64,000 bases of DNA from Alteromonas sp. CI.11.F.A3 (GTDB lineage Bacteria; Pseudomonadota; Gammaproteobacteria; Enterobacterales; Alteromonadaceae), in assembly GCF_032925565.1 (NCBI RefSeq), contig NZ_CP136708.1:3906001-3970000 (forward strand), read 5' to 3'. Below, piece by piece: positions 18,981 to 27,571 of the stretch. The number at the start of each line of letters is the position of its first letter. Position 1 is the first letter of the stretch. The translations under genes and the position numbers were made by a program. The notes beneath the pieces are model-generated. The model saw nothing but the letters and a program-made list of their open reading frames with translations. It made no database searches and was not told where the DNA came from.

Positions 18981-19330
18981 GTGGAGTTGGCCGATAAGCC
19001 GGGTTCTGTCGTGGGCAACCATTCCTCTAGATCAGCAATTACTCACTGATTCAAGCAACCTACCCGATCCCCATGCGGGCCACACGTTAAGGGATCCTAT
19101 TTGGTCTTGCTCCGGGTGGAGTTTACCTTGCCACAACCTGTTACCAGGTGTGCGGTGCGCTCTTACCGCACCCTTTCAGCCTTACCGGCCATTGCTGGCT
19201 TAGGCGGTCTTCTCTCTGCTGCACTTGTCGTCGGCTCGCGCCGCCCAGACGTTATCTGGCACCCTGCCCTTTGGAGCCCGGACTTTCCTCCCCTTTCTTA
19301 CGAAAGCGGCGATTGCCTGGCCAACTCCGC
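18981..19330 (-). ncRNA. rnpB: RNase P RNA (class A)
   Basis: Read on the minus strand, the about 350-base RNA begins with GGAGTTGGCC and ends with GGCCAACTCCACC, which pair to form helix P1. Conserved landmarks include GAGGAAAGTCCGGGCTCC near the 5' end, AGGGCAGGGTGCCAG, GGGTGAAAGGGTGCGGTAAGAGC-type J/P9-P11 sequence, GGTAAACTCCACCCGGAGCAAG, and the 3' GACAGAACCCGGCTTATCGGCC. It is the catalytic component that removes tRNA 5' leaders. A TAGAAT -10 element (19336-19341) sits about 7 bases upstream of the predicted 5' end. The 3' side runs into T7. Ends are estimated from P1. Confidence 0.97.
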
Positions 19331-19335
19331 GGCGC

Positions 19336-19341
19336 ATTCTA
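19336..19341 (-). promoter_or_regulatory. rnpB -10 element
   Basis: On the minus strand TAGAAT lies about 7 bases upstream of the first P1 nucleotide. A TTGTCG about 20 bases further up is a loose -35. The promoter fits within the 51-bp gap behind the antiporter gene. Confidence 0.5.
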
Positions 19342-19381
19342 CATGAAGATGGCCTATTTAGCGACAATCACTTGGCAGCTT

Positions 19382-20842
19382 TTAAGTATCGCCGTAAAAG
19401 CAGGTCTCTACGATGTTTTTATCCAGCAGTTTTGTGATGACAAAAACCTGATCTTCTGCCTGTAATACCGTGCTTCCTTTGGGAATAAGCGTACTTTCAC
19501 CACGGGCGACTAACGCCACAACAGTATCTTCGGGTAACCCCAACTCTGAAATACTTTTGCCTGTTGAGGCAGACATAGAGTGAAGCACTATTTCAATGAG
19601 CTCCCGTTTATCTTTTGCCACTTTAACGATTTCTAGCGTATTCGACTCCCCCCGAGGATTATCGAGTACTAAGCCTAATTTACGTGCGGCAAAGGGTAAA
19701 CTTGACCCTTGTAGCAAGGCTGAAATCATCACAATGAAAAATACCACATTAAAAATAAGCTCAGCGCTGGGTAATTCAAAAATTAGCGGAAAAATAGCCA
19801 AGATTATAGGCACAGAACCACGAAGCCCTACCCAAGAAATAAGCACCGAGGCTTTAAATGAAAACCGGCTTAATAATAACAATGGCATTGCCACCAGCGG
19901 CCGAGCCACAAAAATAAGCACTACCGCAATTAACAAGCCTTCTTTCCATGTGTGTAAAAGTTCAGAAGGCGTTACCAGCAAGCCTAAAATAACGAACATT
20001 GCAATTTGACTTAGCCACGCTAGGCCATCAATGAATACAAAGGTATTTCGTTGATAGGAAAATCGGCTATTACCTACGATTACGCCGGTAATAAACGTCG
20101 CCAAAAAGCCGCTGCCATTTAAGTTCGCCGCTAAACCAAAGGCCAACACCCCAAACAACATAACGAATACGGGATATAAACCTATTGCCATAAGGGTTAC
20201 GCGCCTAAATAGCGCCACCGCTAAGCCCCCTACCACGGCACCTGTAATTGCACCCACCCCCATTTGGCTGGCAAACAACAGGGCTAATTCTGACGCCTTT
20301 GTACTGCTATCTTGAATAAGGGTGATAAGACCAATCGTGAGGAATATGGCCATTGGATCGTTTGATGCACTTTCCAGCTCTAGGGTTGCTTTTAGTCTTG
20401 ATGGAATAGAAATACCCGCATTACGAAGTACAGAGAATACGGCCGCCGCATCGGTAGAACCGACAATGGCACCAAGCAATAATCCCAGATAAAGGGGCAA
20501 GTCGAGAATATACATGGCCGCTACACCCGTTATTGCCGCGGTACCAACCACGCCAAAAGAGGCGAGTAATGCAGCAGGCTTCCACGCCCGCCTAATAGAC
20601 TTCTTTGAAGTTTGAAGCCCACCGTCAAATAGAATGAGGATAAGTGCGAAGGTTCCTATGGAATGCGCGGCATCGGCATTGTCAAAAGAAATTCGACCGA
20701 TACCATCTTCACCAGCAAGCATACCCACCCCCAAAAAAAGAACGAGTACAGGTACACCAAAACGAGGAGACAGTTTGCTGACCAACACGCCGAAAATGGC
20801 TAATAAAGCACTGAGTAGAATGATGTGGTCTACGGCAAACAC
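19382..20842 (-). CDS. K+/H+ antiporter of the CPA1 family (CvrA/NhaP2 type) with C-terminal RCK_C domain
   Basis: 486 residues from a GTG preceded by AAGGAGA. About 12-13 transmembrane helices occupy 1-385, with the CPA1 core motifs ILFDGGLQTS, GAIVGSTDAAAVFSVL and LELESASNDPMAIF (the Asp-bearing ion-binding helix) and GLRGSVPIILAIFP. A cytoplasmic TrkA_C/RCK_C module follows (about 405-480: SISELGLPEDTVVALVARGE, GSTVLQAEDQVFVI). E. coli CvrA is longer by a C-terminal CorC-like part that is missing here. It should exchange cytoplasmic K+ (or Na+) for protons. It is 92 bp downstream of the SecDF gene on the same strand; a GC hairpin in the gap may make it only partly co-transcribed. Confidence 0.88.
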   Translation of the reverse strand: MFAVDHIILLSALLAIFGVLVSKLSPRFGVPVLVLFLGVGMLAGEDGIGRISFDNADAAHSIGTFALILILFDGGLQTSKKSIRRAWKPAALLASFGVVGTAAITGVAAMYILDLPLYLGLLLGAIVGSTDAAAVFSVLRNAGISIPSRLKATLELESASNDPMAIFLTIGLITLIQDSSTKASELALLFASQMGVGAITGAVVGGLAVALFRRVTLMAIGLYPVFVMLFGVLAFGLAANLNGSGFLATFITGVIVGNSRFSYQRNTFVFIDGLAWLSQIAMFVILGLLVTPSELLHTWKEGLLIAVVLIFVARPLVAMPLLLLSRFSFKASVLISWVGLRGSVPIILAIFPLIFELPSAELIFNVVFFIVMISALLQGSSLPFAARKLGLVLDNPRGESNTLEIVKVAKDKRELIEIVLHSMSASTGKSISELGLPEDTVVALVARGESTLIPKGSTVLQAEDQVFVITKLLDKNIVETCFYGDT

Positions 20843-20934
20843 AAGTTATCTCCTTCTAACATAATAGTATTGAAGTATATAGATGAAATGGGCAAAGCGG
20901 TATTTTACCGCCCTACCTATTTCGATTTAAGCAC

Positions 20935-23574
20935 TTAAGGTATATGTGCCAGCGACGCTTTTACCTCCTCGGCTGTTGGCCGAAGCTGTGCTTTCCCCTT
21001 TTGCTCTCTGCGTTTACCCAACATATGGAGTAACGATGAAGTAATAAACAAAGTAGATGAGGTACCTATAACAACGGCAAAGACCATGGGTACGGCAAAA
21101 CTATTAACGGCGTCTCCCCCAACTAGCGCCATAGGTAACAACGCGAGCAACGTGGTTAACGAGGTAAATACCGTTCTGCTAAGCGTGCTATTTACCGCTT
21201 CATTAATAATATCAGCCAGCGAGCGCTCTGGGCTAATTCGCAGTAACTCTCTAACGCGGTCTAACACTACCACTTTATCGTTAATTGAATACCCGATTAA
21301 GGCCAACAGTGCGGCTACCGCGGTAAGATTAAACTCAATTCCGGTTAAGGCAATAAAACCAATGGTTTTGGTTAAATCAAGCAGCACGGTAAGTAATGCC
21401 GCGGTAGCAAAATGCGCTTCGAACTGAAACCATAAATAGGCTAACATTCCCCCGCCCGCAATCAGCAAAGCCAAAATGGAAAGATCGGCAAAACCATCAC
21501 TTACTTTAGGCCCTACAACATCAACCTTGTTAAATACCACCGTGCTGTCAGCGTCTTGTATCTCCTGTTTTAGCGCTTCAATATTGCTGCCTTGCGTAGC
21601 AACTGTATTAGCGTCGGTATTTGTACCGGTATTAGCTCCTGTATTTGCTCCTTTATTAGATAAAGCGTTCGATTGTTCCGATACTGGTGCACGTAATAAG
21701 TACTGATTCTTTGCGCCATACTCTTGAATAGTAATATCTTCAAAGTGGTGCTCTTTTAACACTGTGCGCAACTGCTCCGTAGAAAGCTGCGGCGCAGAAA
21801 TTTCCATCATAGTGCCGCCAGTAAAGTCTACGCCATATTGCAGGCCAGGCTTAACGAAGAGCGCCATTGAGCACAGGGTTAATATCAGTGACACGCTCAA
21901 CGCTAATTTTTTAGACTTTAAAAAGTTAAACGGCCCCAATTTATCGGCCATGACTAACAATGGAGAAGATAAATTAATCGGCTCTCTTTGGTGCTTGCGA
22001 ATTGCCCGTTGCATTAGCAACTTAGTGAGCGCTACCGAGGTAAATAGTGAGGTTATCAAACCTATCGCAATGGTTACCGCAAAGCCTTTCACCGGTCCGC
22101 TGCCAAAAACAAAAAGCAAGCTAACTGCTATTAGCGTGGTGAAATTTGAATCAACAATGGTGCCAAACGCTTTATCAAACCCGATTTTAAGTGCACCACC
22201 TGCTGGCCGCCCTTTTTTGGTTTCTTCACGAATACGTTCATTGATTAAGATATTGGCATCTACCGCCATGCCCATGGTGAGTATTAGCCCAGCAATACCA
22301 GGAAGAGTAAGTGTGGCACCAAAGAGGGTAAGCACGCCAAATACCAGTGCCATATTCACCGTAAGCGCTACACTCGCAATCGCGCCCCAACGGCCGTAAA
22401 TAGCCAGCATAAAGACTAAAACACCCAGTGCCCCTGCAATGCCGCTTTTCACTCCGGTTTCAATAGCATCGCTTCCTAAATCAGGCCCAACGGTACGCTC
22501 TTCAATAATATGCAGTGGAACGGGCAACGCCCCTGTGCGCAGCATTAATGCCACATCTTGTGCTTCGCTCATGGTAAAGCTACCGGTAATTTCACCTCTG
22601 CCACCGGGAATAACACTATTGATAACCGGTGCAGTGACTACCGTGTCATCTAATACAACTGCCAGCACGCGGCCTATATTGTTTTTAGTCATGGTGGCGA
22701 ATTGCCGCGCACCGTCATTATCTAAACGAAACGTCACCACGGGTTGACTGGTTTCAGGGCTAAACACCGCTGCCGCATCGGTAATATGCTCACCTTCTAG
22801 TGCCACATGCTTTTCAAGCAAATACTGCCTGTCGTTAATGTCGGCGCGAATAAAGCTCTCACTATTGTTCACCTGAGTTTGCCAATGAAAACGCATTTGC
22901 GCCGTTGTACCTAGTAAGGCTTTCACATTGGCAGGGTCTGAAATGCCGGGCATTTGCACTAAAATAGCATCGCTACCTTGGCGGGTAACACTGGGTTCTG
23001 TGAGACCGGTTTCGTCAAGCCGTTTACGCACAACTTCGAGGCTGCGATTGATGGCATCTTTTACTACTGCTGCTTGATATTCCTCAGTCAGCTCAAGGAC
23101 AATCACATTCCCTTTTTGACTAATACCTTTTGGAGCAATACCTTTTGGAGCAGTGCTTTGCTGGATAACGCTTTGCTGTGTAAGAAGAAGCGCGCTACTA
23201 CCGTCAGATTGTACCGACACTTCACTTGCCCGTTGTTTAACTTTGTAAAGGTCGTCGGGGTTCGAAAGTGTAAATTGAACACTTAGCCCTTGTTTAGAAG
23301 CATGTTTAACGTAGCGAATATTTTGTTCTCTTAAGTCACTAAAAAGCGCTGAAGAATAGGTGTCTAACTGCCGAGCAAATAACGCATCGGTATCCGCTTC
23401 TAACAATAAGTGAGAACCACCTTGTAAATCCAAACCAAGGGAAAGCGTGTGTTGGCTGTACCACTGAGGTACATGCTGGCGAAGCGAATCGGGTAAAATA
23501 TTGGGGGCGGCGCTAAGTAGGCCTAGTAATATAACTAGCGCATACACTAGGCCACGAAATGAAAATCGTGTCAT
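20935..23574 (-). CDS. secDF: Protein translocase subunit SecDF (fused SecD and SecF)
   Basis: 879 residues. The SecD half (about 1-530) has TM1, the SLGLDLQGGSHLLLE motif, a P1 periplasmic domain and five TM helices with the proton-relay Asp439 in GMAVDANILINERIREE. The SecF half (about 545-870) has GVDFTGGTMMEIS and Asp766 in IGYSINDKVVVLDRVRE. SecDF uses the proton or sodium gradient to pull exported proteins from SecYEG. Gammaproteobacteria usually carry separate secD and secF behind yajC; none of that context is here, so this is probably an accessory copy. Two low-complexity inserts are present: APKGIAPKG (142-150) and an Asn-Thr-Gly-Ala repeat (642-657) in the SecF periplasmic domain. 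It begins 70 bp after the arrest-peptide candidate, with GCAGGA as ribosome site. Confidence 0.93.
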   Translation of the reverse strand: MTRFSFRGLVYALVILLGLLSAAPNILPDSLRQHVPQWYSQHTLSLGLDLQGGSHLLLEADTDALFARQLDTYSSALFSDLREQNIRYVKHASKQGLSVQFTLSNPDDLYKVKQRASEVSVQSDGSSALLLTQQSVIQQSTAPKGIAPKGISQKGNVIVLELTEEYQAAVVKDAINRSLEVVRKRLDETGLTEPSVTRQGSDAILVQMPGISDPANVKALLGTTAQMRFHWQTQVNNSESFIRADINDRQYLLEKHVALEGEHITDAAAVFSPETSQPVVTFRLDNDGARQFATMTKNNIGRVLAVVLDDTVVTAPVINSVIPGGRGEITGSFTMSEAQDVALMLRTGALPVPLHIIEERTVGPDLGSDAIETGVKSGIAGALGVLVFMLAIYGRWGAIASVALTVNMALVFGVLTLFGATLTLPGIAGLILTMGMAVDANILINERIREETKKGRPAGGALKIGFDKAFGTIVDSNFTTLIAVSLLFVFGSGPVKGFAVTIAIGLITSLFTSVALTKLLMQRAIRKHQREPINLSSPLLVMADKLGPFNFLKSKKLALSVSLILTLCSMALFVKPGLQYGVDFTGGTMMEISAPQLSTEQLRTVLKEHHFEDITIQEYGAKNQYLLRAPVSEQSNALSNKGANTGANTGTNTDANTVATQGSNIEALKQEIQDADSTVVFNKVDVVGPKVSDGFADLSILALLIAGGGMLAYLWFQFEAHFATAALLTVLLDLTKTIGFIALTGIEFNLTAVAALLALIGYSINDKVVVLDRVRELLRISPERSLADIINEAVNSTLSRTVFTSLTTLLALLPMALVGGDAVNSFAVPMVFAVVIGTSSTLFITSSLLHMLGKRREQKGKAQLRPTAEEVKASLAHIP
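21604..21651 (-). repeat. Asn-Thr repeat in the SecF part of SecDF
   Basis: The coding strand encodes GANTGANTGTNTDANT from imperfect 9-15 bp units. It lies in the SecF periplasmic domain just before the segment that resumes family similarity, so it is a flexible insert rather than a frameshift. Confidence 0.75.
23123..23152. repeat. Perfect 15-bp tandem duplication in secDF
   Basis: ATACCTTTTGGAGCA occurs twice head to tail and encodes the repeated Ala-Pro-Lys-Gly-Ile. Perfect copies suggest a recent slippage event in a tolerant periplasmic loop. Confidence 0.9.
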
Positions 23575-23580
23575 AAAAAG

Positions 23581-23628
23581 TCCTGCAATAAACCTTTAAA
23601 AAATGAGAAGCACTGCAAGTGCAGCGCG
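23581..23628 (-). promoter_or_regulatory. secDF ribosome site with possible sequestering pairing
   Basis: On the minus strand the secDF Shine-Dalgarno region TGCAGGA (23581-23587) can pair its TGCAG with an upstream CTGCA (23620-23624), which itself lies in a small GCACT/AGTGC hairpin (23610-23622). A ribosome stalled at the RGPP motif, about 20-35 bases upstream, could disturb these structures. The pairing is short and weak, so this is only suggestive. Confidence 0.3.
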
Positions 23629-23644
23629 TGATATCAGTAAGGTA

Positions 23645-24052
23645 TTACAGAGAAGAAGGTGGGCCGCGACTCGATATGCCCCTCCAGTGAAAGGCAATAT
23701 ATTCAAAGGGCTTGCTAAAAGTAGCACCCGAGAAATCGGCGAGTACTATATTGAGTCGATACCCGCCGGGCAGTAGATGTTGATCAGAATTGTCTACATC
23801 AGCGTCTTGCTGTTGACTATGCTGGGCAAATCCAAAGCGCGTAGCAACAGAAAGTCCAAAATCGGAAAAGGATATCTGCGGAGTTTGTTCGTTAAACGAA
23901 GCCGAATCATTCGTGGAATAAGCTGAAAATGGCGCGCTGAATACAAGTACCGACACCACAATAGAAAACACCCACGCATAAACTGAAGACGCGTAGTTTT
24001 TCTGAAATGATGAGTGATCGTCATTGAGACGTTCAGGCTTGAAACGATGCAT
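23645..24052 (-). CDS. Candidate SecM/RAPP-like translation-arrest peptide upstream of secDF
   Basis: 135 residues with a charged, unusually long n-region (1-23), a hydrophobic core (about 24-45, VYAWVFSIVVSVLVFSAPFSA) and a polar passenger. It ends in FEYIAFHWRGISSRGPPSSL and the stop. Arg129-Gly-Pro-Pro132 resembles SecM RAGP and the RAPP motifs of ApdA/ApdP. Phe116 and Phe121 stand 13 and 8 residues before the Arg, exactly where SecM has Phe150 and Trp155. Pro132 occupies the SecM Pro166 position. The stop is 70 bp before secDF on the same strand. Known analogues (SecM, VemP, MifM, ApdA/ApdP) are exported or inserted proteins encoded directly before secA, secDF or yidC, and stall near their C-terminus until pulled. 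I recognise no overall homologue. No strong Shine-Dalgarno is seen before the ATG. Gene reality is likely; arrest function is inference. Confidence 0.75.
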   Translation of the reverse strand: MHRFKPERLNDDHSSFQKNYASSVYAWVFSIVVSVLVFSAPFSAYSTNDSASFNEQTPQISFSDFGLSVATRFGFAQHSQQQDADVDNSDQHLLPGGYRLNIVLADFSGATFSKPFEYIAFHWRGISSRGPPSSL

Positions 24053-24427
24053 GGAGCGGTAGTGATAACTTTTTATTATTCCGTTGCGCTGTATATGGGT
24101 ATGAAATGGTAAAAAGCAAATCAGAGAGTTGCTTTTAATGCCTTTTCAATTGTAACTTCGGGCTCTTCCGCTACCATTGCTTTAACTTTCAAGCCTATCG
24201 ATATTTGCACTACTGAAATGGTGATATTGACTAATATTAAGATGAGCTCGGCTCCACAATCACTCACTTGCAGCTCAATATCACTGTCGGATTTATTTAC
24301 ATAAAATTAACTCAAGTTAAACAATTAAGATTGGTTAAAATGTAAGCATCTGAATTAAAATGCATTTAAATCATTGGCTCGATTAATGCCTATTAATCCA
24401 TCAATTATTAAATTTTTGGAAAACATT
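24053..24427. other. Divergent intergenic region upstream of the arrest-peptide candidate
   Basis: 375 bp between the arrest-peptide gene (minus) and the PEP-CTERM-like gene (plus). It contains a possible 48-codon small ORF (listed separately) and a 14-bp palindrome TTAACTCAAGTTAA at 24307-24320, placed where a divergent promoter or operator would be. No other structure was recognised. Confidence 0.5.
24121..24267 (-). CDS. Possible 48-residue small membrane peptide
   Basis: A GTG at 24267 opens a frame of 48 residues. A hydrophobic segment (AELILILVNITISVVQISIG) is followed by a charged, helical tail (KVKAMVAEEPEVTIEKALKA). The composition looks like a single-pass or amphipathic peptide rather than random sequence, and it stops 68 bp before the arrest-peptide gene on the same strand. 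No ATG and no clear ribosome site support it, and the frame stays open upstream to 24310, so it could be the relic of a longer gene. Confidence 0.3.
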   Translation of the reverse strand: MSDCGAELILILVNITISVVQISIGLKVKAMVAEEPEVTIEKALKATL

Positions 24428-25258
24428 ATGAAGTTACGTTTCAGACTTTACACTCTTATTGCTGCTTCATTACTTCCCCTTCAAGCAAGCGCGGCCGTTA
24501 TCCCAACGGGCTTGGACATCAGTGGTTTTTTACTAACCGATATAATTGAAGGTGATGGAAACATTACTGCTTCTTTAGATAAAGTCGAAAATGGTATTAC
24601 TGTGCCATCGACCACAATTTCGGGCCCACTTGATACCACAACTACCACTGGTGACAATCCGTTAGAGATAGACCGGCTTACCAACACCAATTCTGGGTTT
24701 AAATTCGACAGCAATTTTAATGGTGTAGCAGGTGCTTTGGGGGAATCCTACTTTGACGGCCAGTTCCTCTTTGTTACTGAGAACCAAACTTCTGATGACT
24801 TTTCGCTTTCATGGTCACTTAACTTTAGCTTAACCGCAGATGCTGGCGGAGATGCTGCCGGTGACTTTGTGAATACCTACCTACTTTTAGATGATGTTTT
24901 TAGTACCTTGTTCGAACGAGATTTATATTCTGATACTTTATTAGGCGATCTCCTAGTTACCGACGGCGTAGAGTCTGAACCCGGTACGCGAGGAGCTGCA
25001 ATTAATACCTCGGGCGTGTTCTCTTTTATGCAAACCGTAAGTGCCGGTAGCACCAATGGATTTAGCGGAATTTTCGGACTCCAATCCTTTCTTGATAACA
25101 CACTGGGGGCTCACAACAGCTTAATAAGTTTTGATATCACATTGTCTGGTATTGAGAACTTATCCACTCCCCCCCCACCAACCAATGTCAATGGACCTGC
25201 GTCACTTGCGCTTATATTCCTGAGTCTTGGTCTTATGCGTTTATGTCGTCGCAAGTAG
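24428..25258 (+). CDS. Secreted protein with PEP-CTERM-like C-terminal anchor
   Basis: 276 residues from the ATG at 24428, chosen because it starts a clean signal peptide (KLRFRLYTL..., cut after QASA) and follows GGAAA; an in-frame upstream ATG at 24374 would bury the signal. The mature part is acidic, Thr/Ser/Asp-rich and beta-predicted (ISGFLLTDIIEGDGN, FDGQFLFVTENQTSDDFSLSWSLNF). The C-terminus is a Pro-rich spacer (STPPPP), then GPASLALIFLSLGLMRLCRRK. That has the small-residue motif, hydrophobic helix and basic tail of PEP-CTERM sorting signals, though the PEP triplet has become NGP. PEP-CTERM proteins are processed by exosortase and linked to exopolysaccharide; no exosortase gene is in this window. 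Confidence 0.7.
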   Translation: MKLRFRLYTLIAASLLPLQASAAVIPTGLDISGFLLTDIIEGDGNITASLDKVENGITVPSTTISGPLDTTTTTGDNPLEIDRLTNTNSGFKFDSNFNGVAGALGESYFDGQFLFVTENQTSDDFSLSWSLNFSLTADAGGDAAGDFVNTYLLLDDVFSTLFERDLYSDTLLGDLLVTDGVESEPGTRGAAINTSGVFSFMQTVSAGSTNGFSGIFGLQSFLDNTLGAHNSLISFDITLSGIENLSTPPPPTNVNGPASLALIFLSLGLMRLCRRK

Positions 25259-25386
25259 ACAACGAACAAGCTCAACTAAATTAGGTTGTCGCTTACATTT
25301 AGCATTCAAATTTTAATTTATTAGTTATAAACACGACTTCCTTGAAAGTTTGCAGTTGGGAAGCGCGATAGAATAGGACGTTTTTT

Positions 25387-26115
25387 ATGAAAAAACTCAG
25401 ATGTATCACGCCGCTTGCCACTGTAAGCCTGCTGATAGCCAGTATCCCACTAACCGCACAAGCAAACTGTGGCTCATACGCCTATATTGCCAGTATGTGT
25501 CCATTTGCTGGTAACTTTGCTCCGCGCGATACAGCCTTTGCGCATGGTCAGTTATTACCTATTTCGAACAATACTGCACTATTTTCATTGGTTGGCACTA
25601 CTTATGGCGGTGATGGACGCACCACCTTTGGCTTGCCCGATATGCGAGGCAGAGTTGCCATTCACCAAGGACGAGGGCCTGGTTTGTCAAACTACTCCAT
25701 TGGCAGTAAAGGGGGGCTTGAACAAGTCACATTAACTTCTAACCAGCTTCCTTCGCATACGCATACCGCTACAACAGTAGCCACGGTAACCGTCAACAAT
25801 ACAACGTTAAATGCTGAAAGCACGGTAATGTTAATGGGAAGTGATTCTGTAGCTAATATCGCCTCACCAGCAGGTAATTCATTGGCGCAGTTGGGGGGGC
25901 GAAGAGCTCGAATGTACGCCAATACCACTCCCGACGTGGTGATGAGTAACGACGCTGCCACGCTCAATGTGAGCGTTGATGAAGCTTCGCTTAGCACTGG
26001 CGTCAAAACTACGGTAGGGAATAGCGGAAATGGCCTATCCCATGAAAATCGACAGCCCTACCTCGCCGTTAATTGGATCATTACCTTATATGGTACTTAC
26101 CCTTCACGCGGATAA
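25387..26115 (+). CDS. Secreted phage-tail-collar-domain protein, paralogue 1
   Basis: 242 residues with a signal peptide (cut after AQA). The mature N-terminus carries two conserved cysteines (CGSYAYIASMC). The tail-collar core follows: FAPRDTAFAHGQLLPISNNTALFSLVGTTYGGDGRTTFGLPDMRGR, cited here only by its key parts (GTTYGGDGR, LPDMRGR), then SHTHTA and the C-terminal ENRQPYLAVNWIITLYG. This is the microcystin-dependent-protein (MdpB) family, related to short-tail-fibre collar domains. Family function is not settled. It is the first of three tandem copies, 18 bp before the second. It is the most divergent copy in lacking the RGWA motif. Confidence 0.85.
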   Translation: MKKLRCITPLATVSLLIASIPLTAQANCGSYAYIASMCPFAGNFAPRDTAFAHGQLLPISNNTALFSLVGTTYGGDGRTTFGLPDMRGRVAIHQGRGPGLSNYSIGSKGGLEQVTLTSNQLPSHTHTATTVATVTVNNTTLNAESTVMLMGSDSVANIASPAGNSLAQLGGRRARMYANTTPDVVMSNDAATLNVSVDEASLSTGVKTTVGNSGNGLSHENRQPYLAVNWIITLYGTYPSRG

Positions 26116-26133
26116 CACAAGAGAACACGTAAA

Positions 26134-26844
26134 ATGAAAACATTACTTCAACCTGTGTTACTTACCTCGGTAGTACTAGCTGGAATTTACACCTCCCCAG
26201 TAAGAGCTTGCGAAACCGAGCCAATGCTAGGCAGCTTGTGCACTTTTGCCTTCAACTTTGCGCCACGAGGCTGGGCAATGGCGGATGGGCAAATTTTATC
26301 AATCAGCCAGAATACAGCGGTGTTTGCACTTTTTGGAACGACTTACGGAGGTGATGGTCGTACAAGTTTTGCCCTTCCGGATTTACGCGGTCGGGGGGTT
26401 ATTGCTCCAGGCCAAGGCCCGGGGCTTACTAATTATAGTTGGGGTCAAAGCGTTGGCGCCGAGACGGTGGCGTTAACCGCCGCCCAAATACCGGTTCACA
26501 CCCACACAGCATCAACAACCATCGAGGTCAATATTGCAGATGATAGTGACAGTGTTACGACCGCCGCTATACTAAAAAGCGCAACATCTTTAGGCGATTC
26601 AGCGACACCTTCCGCAACTGTTTTTGCTCAAAATGTTGCCAGTGCTAACGCCTATTCGACCGCTGCGCCTGATGTTGCGTTATCCCCCGACAGCATCGCA
26701 GTGTCGCTATCAGGCAGCTCTAACGCAACAGTGACGACGGCAATTACCCCAACAGGAGCAGGACAGCCACATTTAAACCGAATGCCGTATCAAACCCTCA
26801 CTTGGGCCATCGCGCTTCAAGGCCTATTCCCCAGTCGCTCATAA
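26134..26844 (+). CDS. Secreted phage-tail-collar-domain protein, paralogue 2
   Basis: 236 residues; signal peptide ending near PVRA, then Cys-x11-Cys at the mature start. Collar motifs are NFAPRGWAMADGQILSISQN, GTTYGGDGRTSFALPDLRGRG, the HTHTAS histidines and a C-terminal NRMPYQTLTWAIALQGLFPSR. The middle, where the paralogues differ most, is a Ser/Thr/Ala-rich beta region (about 125-205), the probable variable or receptor-binding part by analogy with tail fibres. It starts 18 bp after copy 1 and ends 19 bp before copy 3, so the three should be co-transcribed. Confidence 0.87.
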   Translation: MKTLLQPVLLTSVVLAGIYTSPVRACETEPMLGSLCTFAFNFAPRGWAMADGQILSISQNTAVFALFGTTYGGDGRTSFALPDLRGRGVIAPGQGPGLTNYSWGQSVGAETVALTAAQIPVHTHTASTTIEVNIADDSDSVTTAAILKSATSLGDSATPSATVFAQNVASANAYSTAAPDVALSPDSIAVSLSGSSNATVTTAITPTGAGQPHLNRMPYQTLTWAIALQGLFPSRS

Positions 26845-26863
26845 TATAAAAAGGAAATTAATC

Positions 26864-27571
26864 ATGAATAAATTAACGTGTTGGATTATTGGTGCGACAG
26901 CAGTAACTGGGTCTATGTTCACTCCTCATGCCATAGCGTGCCCATCGAATCCAACCATTGCGCAAATGTGTGTGGTAGGTTTTAACTTTGCACCCCGAGG
27001 GTGGGCGTTTGCAAACGGCCAGTTATTACCTATTTCTCAAAATACTACTCTGTTTTCACTGATTGGCACTACCTATGGTGGTGATGGCCGAACAACTATG
27101 CAGTTACCCGATGCCAGAGGGCGTGTTTTAATTGGCGCAGGTCAAGGGCCTGGCTTATCTAACTACAGGCTGGGGCAGACTGGCGGTGTTGAGTCAGTAA
27201 CACTATCAATTCAAGATATGGCTATTCATAACCACAGTGCCACATCCACCGCTAATATCACTGTTGAAATTACCGGTACACTGCAACTAACGGGCGCTAG
27301 CGGCAGAGCAAATCAAGCTTCTCTAAATGCAAATACCATGGCCAGAACGAGTGGCTCTACGCGAGTCTATGCGGTGGCAAATGGTGATGTTCCTGTTGTT
27401 GATATGCATGCGGATAGTATTGTAGTTACTTTGCCAACAATTGATGTTAATGGCACAGGCGAGACAACACTTGGAGATGCCGGTGGCAGCCAAGCACATG
27501 AAAATCGCGCTCCCTCATTAGCGATGCATTGGATAATTGCGTTGGAAGGAATATACCCATCAAGAAGCTAG
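26864..27571 (+). CDS. Secreted phage-tail-collar-domain protein, paralogue 3
   Basis: 235 residues; signal peptide ending near AIA, then Cys-x10-Cys. Motifs are FNFAPRGWAFANGQLLPISQN, GTTYGGDGRTTMQLPDARGRV, IHNHSA and HENRAPSLAMHWIIALEGIYPSR. A good AAGGAAA lies before the ATG. Its 3' end overlaps the 5' end of the Sel1-repeat gene, which implies one operon. No phage structural, lysis or integrase genes are nearby, so these are domesticated exported proteins, not prophage remains. Confidence 0.88.
   Translation: MNKLTCWIIGATAVTGSMFTPHAIACPSNPTIAQMCVVGFNFAPRGWAFANGQLLPISQNTTLFSLIGTTYGGDGRTTMQLPDARGRVLIGAGQGPGLSNYRLGQTGGVESVTLSIQDMAIHNHSATSTANITVEITGTLQLTGASGRANQASLNANTMARTSGSTRVYAVANGDVPVVDMHADSIVVTLPTIDVNGTGETTLGDAGGSQAHENRAPSLAMHWIIALEGIYPSRS

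Follow-up and report, generated by a model that had tools for sequence, protein, structure and literature searches.

Introduction

In a survey of more than 30,000 genomes, Fujiwara et al. (2024) assembled upstream open reading frames (uORFs) whose C-termini are RAPP-like into the RQH family, and those found ahead of secDF in Enterobacterales were named uDF_RQH_Enterobacterales (PMC10987492). As given in the published text, such a uORF is short, has no annotated function and lies directly 5' of a sec gene; its RAPP-like motif is common to more than two uORFs within one order; and more than 30 residues separate the signal from the end of the conserved sequence (PMC10987492).

In vitro, a representative of the group carrying R125GPP arrests ribosomes of both E. 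coli and B. subtilis (arrested fraction above 0.9), and on those of B. subtilis the arrest was not eliminated by an R125A change (PMC10987492). In toeprints of RQH peptides, the P-site holds the third residue of the motif (PMC10987492). In a construct from A. naphthalenivorans, which is presumably the in vitro representative because both have R125GPP, the substitution P127A reduced expression of a secDF2'-lacZ reporter ~5.6-fold (PMC10987492). There, stem-loop 2 partly masks the secDF2 Shine-Dalgarno (SD) sequence and arrest opens it, inducing secDF2; stem-loop 2 mutants regained expression, Sm1 partly and Sm2 strongly, and the effect was reproduced in purified translation as well (PMC10987492). 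This was the only study that our literature search on Alteromonas arrest peptides found.

Results

We analyzed a 64,000-nt stretch of the Alteromonas sp. CI.11.F.A3 genome (contig NZ_CP136708.1, positions 3,906,001 to 3,970,000), hereafter the window; the source genome comprises 4.66 Mb in a single contig. On the minus strand, a short uORF with a charged N-terminus ahead of a hydrophobic core ends in R129-G130-P131-P132-S-S-L-stop (23668-23645), 70 nt before the ATG (23574) of a fused secDF gene (Table 1). An N-terminal secretion or membrane signal, as expected for the group, was detected by hydropathy, with 88 residues between the end of its core and P131, and the uORF yielded no Pfam or NCBIfam family matches. 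Two phenylalanines, F116 and F121, precede R129 by 13 and 8 residues, respectively.

An earlier note on this DNA had described a 135-residue ORF with a signal-like core and an R129-G-P-P-S-S-L end, 70 nt before a fused secDF, and coordinates and Pfam confirmed this. The note had also read the ORF as an arrest peptide controlling secDF, a claim that is strongly supported by the comparison made here and by the published experiments on A. naphthalenivorans and on the group (PMC10987492); on that basis, a role in arrest, Sec monitoring and control of secDF is very probable. Its statement that no described family has this sequence fails, as the ORF falls in uDF_RQH_Enterobacterales (PMC10987492).

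This assignment was made through a second genome, G025, whose uORF is 83% identical to that of the window. When read from Met5, the G025 uORF has 131 aa, N124, R125GPP and P127, in agreement with the numbering of PMC10987492, and we infer that G025 is A. naphthalenivorans. Judged by sequence, the window ORF is an orthologue of the A. naphthalenivorans arrest peptide. The peptide group is already described in this genus in the published text, and this exact strain would be included by extension.

The uORF was matched by sequence in 8 of 59 genomes of the genus, its own genome counted. Nine homologues were found among 16 protein-database candidates, and wherever a name was shown it was 'hypothetical protein'. 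By eye, no clear SD precedes the uORF start, and a promoter scan returned 2 sites compared to 3.2 expected from shuffles. We found no near match among plasmid records. An Rfam search over 19000-25500 gave no match at the uORF or in the gap between uORF and secDF2, the only hit being RNase P RNA (RF00010, 300.6 bits, 19000-19328, minus strand), which is clipped at the edge of the searched stretch.

On the opposite strand, a divergent ORF of 294 aa (24374-25258, plus strand) begins with a signal-like sequence and has at its C-terminal end a hydrophobic stretch and then Arg/Lys, reminiscent of a surface-anchoring signal; its start is uncertain, a later ATG looking better. Beyond it, three ORFs of 235-242 aa that are similar to one another follow in a row (25387-27571, plus strand); they have signal-like starts, and we take them to resemble phage tail-collar type proteins.

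Table 1. Features of the uORF-secDF2 region, in window coordinates
Feature	Position	Strand	Basis or comment
uORF, 135 aa, ATG start	23645..24052	-	Assigned as an arrest-peptide orthologue by ORF call and genus-wide sequence match
Signal-sequence hydrophobic core, residues 24-42	23927..23983	-	Top Kyte-Doolittle 19-residue window, mean 2.07
Arrest motif R129-G-P-P132	23657..23668	-	Predicted P-site codon P131 (23662-23660) and A-site codon P132 (23659-23657)
Stem 5' arm	23639..23653	-	MFE fold; overlaps both the uORF stop and the leading edge of a P131-stalled ribosome
Inner hairpin within the stem loop	23610..23627	-	Fold and terminator scan; terminator-like score
Stem 3' arm with the secDF2 SD GCAGGA (23586-23581)	23581..23596	-	MFE fold
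Fused secDF2, regulated gene, 879 aa	20935..23574	-	Pfam SecD_1st, SecDF_P1_head and SecD_SecF_C; NCBIfam NF009583 above cut-off
K+/H+ antiporter gene, downstream of secDF2	19382..20842	-	NCBIfam NF003715

Because the genome also holds separate secD and secF genes, the fused gene is a second copy, secDF2. Its product shares 40% identity, over the best stretch, with the separate proteins. Ahead of the separate secD/secF is a 116-residue ORF that we take to be YajC, and none of the same-strand ORFs of at least 70 aa listed near those genes has a RAPP-like tail.

The fused secDF2 was found in at least 31 of the 59 genus genomes (up to the best 15 candidates scored per genome). Searches of the family and the order, in which absences are weak because few candidates were scored in each, gave at least 13 of 196 genomes, 7 of them Alteromonas (best 4 candidates or fewer), and at least 6 of 295 (best 3 or fewer), respectively. 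All 31 secDF2 genomes of the genus have a uORF with a RAPP-like tail, and the same holds for six secDF2 loci found elsewhere in the family, in two further genera; two of these six have variant tails (QASP and TGPP). Thus, the tail is present at 37 of 37 secDF2 loci, all from one family. Two of the 37 loci are from the same species (G000 and G047). We used 36 in the quantitative analyses; the 37th (L060), whose uORF ends in PRAPPTC, was read for its uORF only.

In all 36 fully analyzed loci, the uORF 5' of secDF2 closes with [R/Q/T][A/G/S][P/S]P, with the qualification that the pattern used to place the uORFs was broadened to [RQT][AGS][PS]P after the loci had been inspected. The tails comprise 18 RGPP, 13 RAPP, 2 RASP and one each of RSPP, QASP and TGPP. 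On the SecDF tree, in which the branch of L048 is very long, the RGPP and RAPP labels require at least four and at least six changes, respectively, on the starred branches. Among 713 distinct ORFs of at least 60 aa from the window and the loci, R[AG]PP within the last 14 residues occurred in these uORFs only, although this background is narrow because the loci repeat the same few genes. Two uORFs (L045 and L046) terminate exactly at R-A-S-P-stop; therefore, a ribosome stalled at the third motif residue would hold the last sense codon in its A-site.

The rest of the peptide varies far more widely. Over the 36 loci the motif type is kept, yet median pairwise identity in the 70 residues ahead of the motif is 0.21. 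The six closest orthologues have invariant residues at 28 of 33 positions in segment 16-48, 23 of 27 in 49-75, 15 of 36 in 76-111 and 16 of 24 in the C tail; among these peptides the C tail is no better conserved than the signal core, and strong variation is confined to residues 76-111. The expectation of a conserved C-terminus with a drifting passenger, raised by the earlier note, was thus borne out by the 37 tails and the 21% median passenger identity but not among the six closest orthologues: the pattern is visible at the wider scale only. The same note had aligned the two phenylalanines with Phe150 and Trp155 of SecM. The offsets of -13 and -8 were right, but only 6 of 36 loci, the closest orthologues, have aromatic residues at both, and each position alone is aromatic in 7 of 36. 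We therefore set aside a SecM-like aromatic register; the parallel is local and probably coincidental.

These comparisons bear on whether the uORF might instead encode a small secreted protein that has a periplasmic function of its own, for which the RGPP tail and the place before secDF would be incidental. The signal sequence and the near-invariant segment 49-75 of the closest orthologues are what such a protein might be expected to have. Nevertheless, the passenger has drifted at the wider scale while the motif type was retained, all 37 uORFs lie directly 5' of secDF2, and the published representative arrests translation (PMC10987492). We consider a separate secreted protein very improbable and favor the arrest peptide.

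RNA folding placed the secDF2 SD of the window in a stem whose 5' arm overlaps the end of the uORF (Table 1), and we took this computed stem to be stem-loop 2 of PMC10987492. The 5' arm starts 9-12 nt past the first P-site nucleotide, and the partners of the SD side are at +12 to +18 nt from that nucleotide. We compared the probability that the SD is unpaired in the free RNA, in 60 shuffles of the intervening sequence per locus, and after removal of a stalled-ribosome footprint, defined as all RNA as far as 16 nt beyond the P-site. For the window, this probability was 0.03 free, 0.22 as the shuffle mean and 0.50 with the footprint removed; 7% of the 60 shuffles matched or undercut the free value.

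Across the 36 loci the corresponding means were 0.10, 0.36 and 0.51. Removal of the footprint raised SD exposure in 34 of 36 loci, and 35 of 36 free values lay under the shuffle mean. Taken one locus at a time the signal is weaker: in 20 of 36, the free value was matched or undercut by no more than 5% of the 60 shuffles. Because the loci share ancestry, none of these counts represents independent tests. Exposure did not increase in L041 and L045; in L045, 95% of shuffles had an SD no more open than that of the free RNA. The SD partner in L053 is the intergenic region rather than the end of the uORF, and in L050 and L051 only four pairs form. The causal weight for control by the stem rests with the published mutants.

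Since the 5' arm overlaps the uORF stop, a terminating ribosome would open the stem too. It is therefore conceivable that ordinary translation and termination of a leader ORF, with no stalling, couples the uORF to secDF2, and the arrest-defective P127A reporter does still express more than an early-stop construct (PMC10987492). However, P127A costs ~5.6-fold in secDF2 expression despite full translation of the ORF (PMC10987492), and the RAPP-like motif is retained at all 37 loci, so that we give scarcely any credence to coupling without a stall.

The inner hairpin (23627-23610) raises another alternative, in which the stalled ribosome controls a terminator in the gap instead of, or besides, the SD. 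The hairpin is terminator-like, the region having 2 such sites compared to 0.9 +/- 0.9 in shuffles, but its tail is not a clean T run and most other loci, their folds read by eye, are without a T run past it. Furthermore, the regulatory effect was reproduced by stem-loop 2 mutations and in purified translation (PMC10987492). Transcription attenuation is accordingly highly unlikely, and we retain unmasking of the SD by arrest as the preferred explanation.

Of the 36 loci, 27 have the antiporter gene downstream of secDF2 in the same orientation, and in the other 9 the 1500-nt flank lacks it. The antiporter gene was found in 38 of the 59 genus genomes, 11 of which had no secDF2 among the scored candidates; in the five of these 11 with the closest antiporter, we found neither secDF2 nor a RAPP-tailed uORF among ORFs of at least 80 aa. 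The gap between secDF2 and the antiporter gene of the window contains a 12-pair hairpin (20917-20891) with a weakly T-rich tail, and 3 terminator-like sites compared to 2.5 expected. We conclude that the antiporter gene is a conserved neighbor of secDF2; co-transcription of the two is putative.

Using hydropathy cores to measure spacer length, we obtained 87.0 +/- 2.3 residues (range 81-91) from the core end to the P-site residue in 36 loci. The noncoding gap between uORF and secDF2 ranges from 35 to 104 nt over the same number of loci, some gaps moving by a few bases with the secDF2 starts re-chosen for stem modeling. Peptides encoded upstream of sec genes generally have long spacers of variable length, the published medians being 131.5 and 71 residues for SecM and 133 for VemP (PMC10987492). 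The near-constant 87-residue spacer is possibly a new finding, and it may already show in the per-group plots of PMC10987492.

Discussion

We are highly confident that the window ORF is a uDF_RQH_Enterobacterales orthologue, in which an export-sensing stall at P131 would unmask the secDF2 SD. The motif, stem and gene order of the window were computed here; arrest, the stall site and induction of secDF2 were published for the orthologue or the group. In the proposed mechanism, the signal sequence would guide the growing polypeptide to the Sec translocon. Slow export would leave the ribosome stalled, P131 occupying the P-site and P132 the A-site, and the ribosome front would cover the 5' arm, leaving the SD free, so that secDF2 would be translated and export capacity would rise. 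Active export would pull on the chain and release the stall, upon which the stem would form and secDF2 would be repressed. We infer both that this very ORF stalls and that export relieves the stall.

Starting from raw sequence, the work independently arrived at an arrest-peptide group that has experimental support. To the published work, the comparison adds 37 of 37 uORF-secDF2 pairs, an SD-pairing arm at the ribosome front in most of them, and the near-constant spacer.

Conceivably, the spacer is a molecular ruler that would make the peptide sensitive, at a single fixed length, to late pulling that depends on SecDF; we regard this as rather unlikely. Under a ruler, selection would fix the timing of the chain at SecYEG/SecDF relative to the stall, not the identity of the chain, and the peptide would possibly be part of an ion-adaptation module with the neighboring K+/H+ antiporter, much as VemP serves adaptation to Na+ in Vibrio. 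The ordinary alternatives are common descent and the general purging of frame-breaking indels in coding sequence. If the ruler idea is true, the family would permit a direct test of the stretch of nascent chain on which SecDF acts.

In Vibrio, SecD1/F1 is Na+-driven and SecD2/F2 is putatively H+-driven, and at low Na+ VemP induces SecD2/F2 (PMC11470409). By analogy, the second SecDF of Alteromonas, with its unrelated arrest peptide and frequent K+/H+ antiporter neighbor, suggests that a similar ion adaptation may operate there.

Among the known systems, SecM resembles the window uORF in having a signal sequence, a C-terminal R-x-x-P arrest motif and a stem over an SD that is opened. SecM carries RAGP and controls secA, whereas the window uORF carries RGPP and precedes secDF, and on these grounds we rejected membership in SecM. 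ApdA and ApdP likewise have a RAPP-type motif near the C-terminus and lie 5' of secDF2; they come from Actinobacteriota and Alphaproteobacteria and are treated as separate groups by the authors of the survey (PMC10987492).

VemP shares the regulatory logic, being an upstream arrest peptide for a second SecDF in marine gammaproteobacteria. Its motif is RxxxWKxxNxxY-like (PMC10987492). By eye, such a motif is absent from the window translation, and membership in VemP was rejected. The Vibrio targets are two genes, secD2 and secF2, whereas SecDF2 of the window is one fused protein, and the published median VemP spacer of 133 residues contrasts with 88 in the window uORF.

The closest relative is the uDF_RQH_Enterobacterales peptide of A. 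naphthalenivorans. Compared to it, the window uORF is four residues longer by its assumed M1, having Lys where G025 has Met5, and the residue before the motif Arg is Ser rather than Asn. The two share their genus, an RGPP motif three residues before the stop, secDF2 as the target and a stem over its SD.
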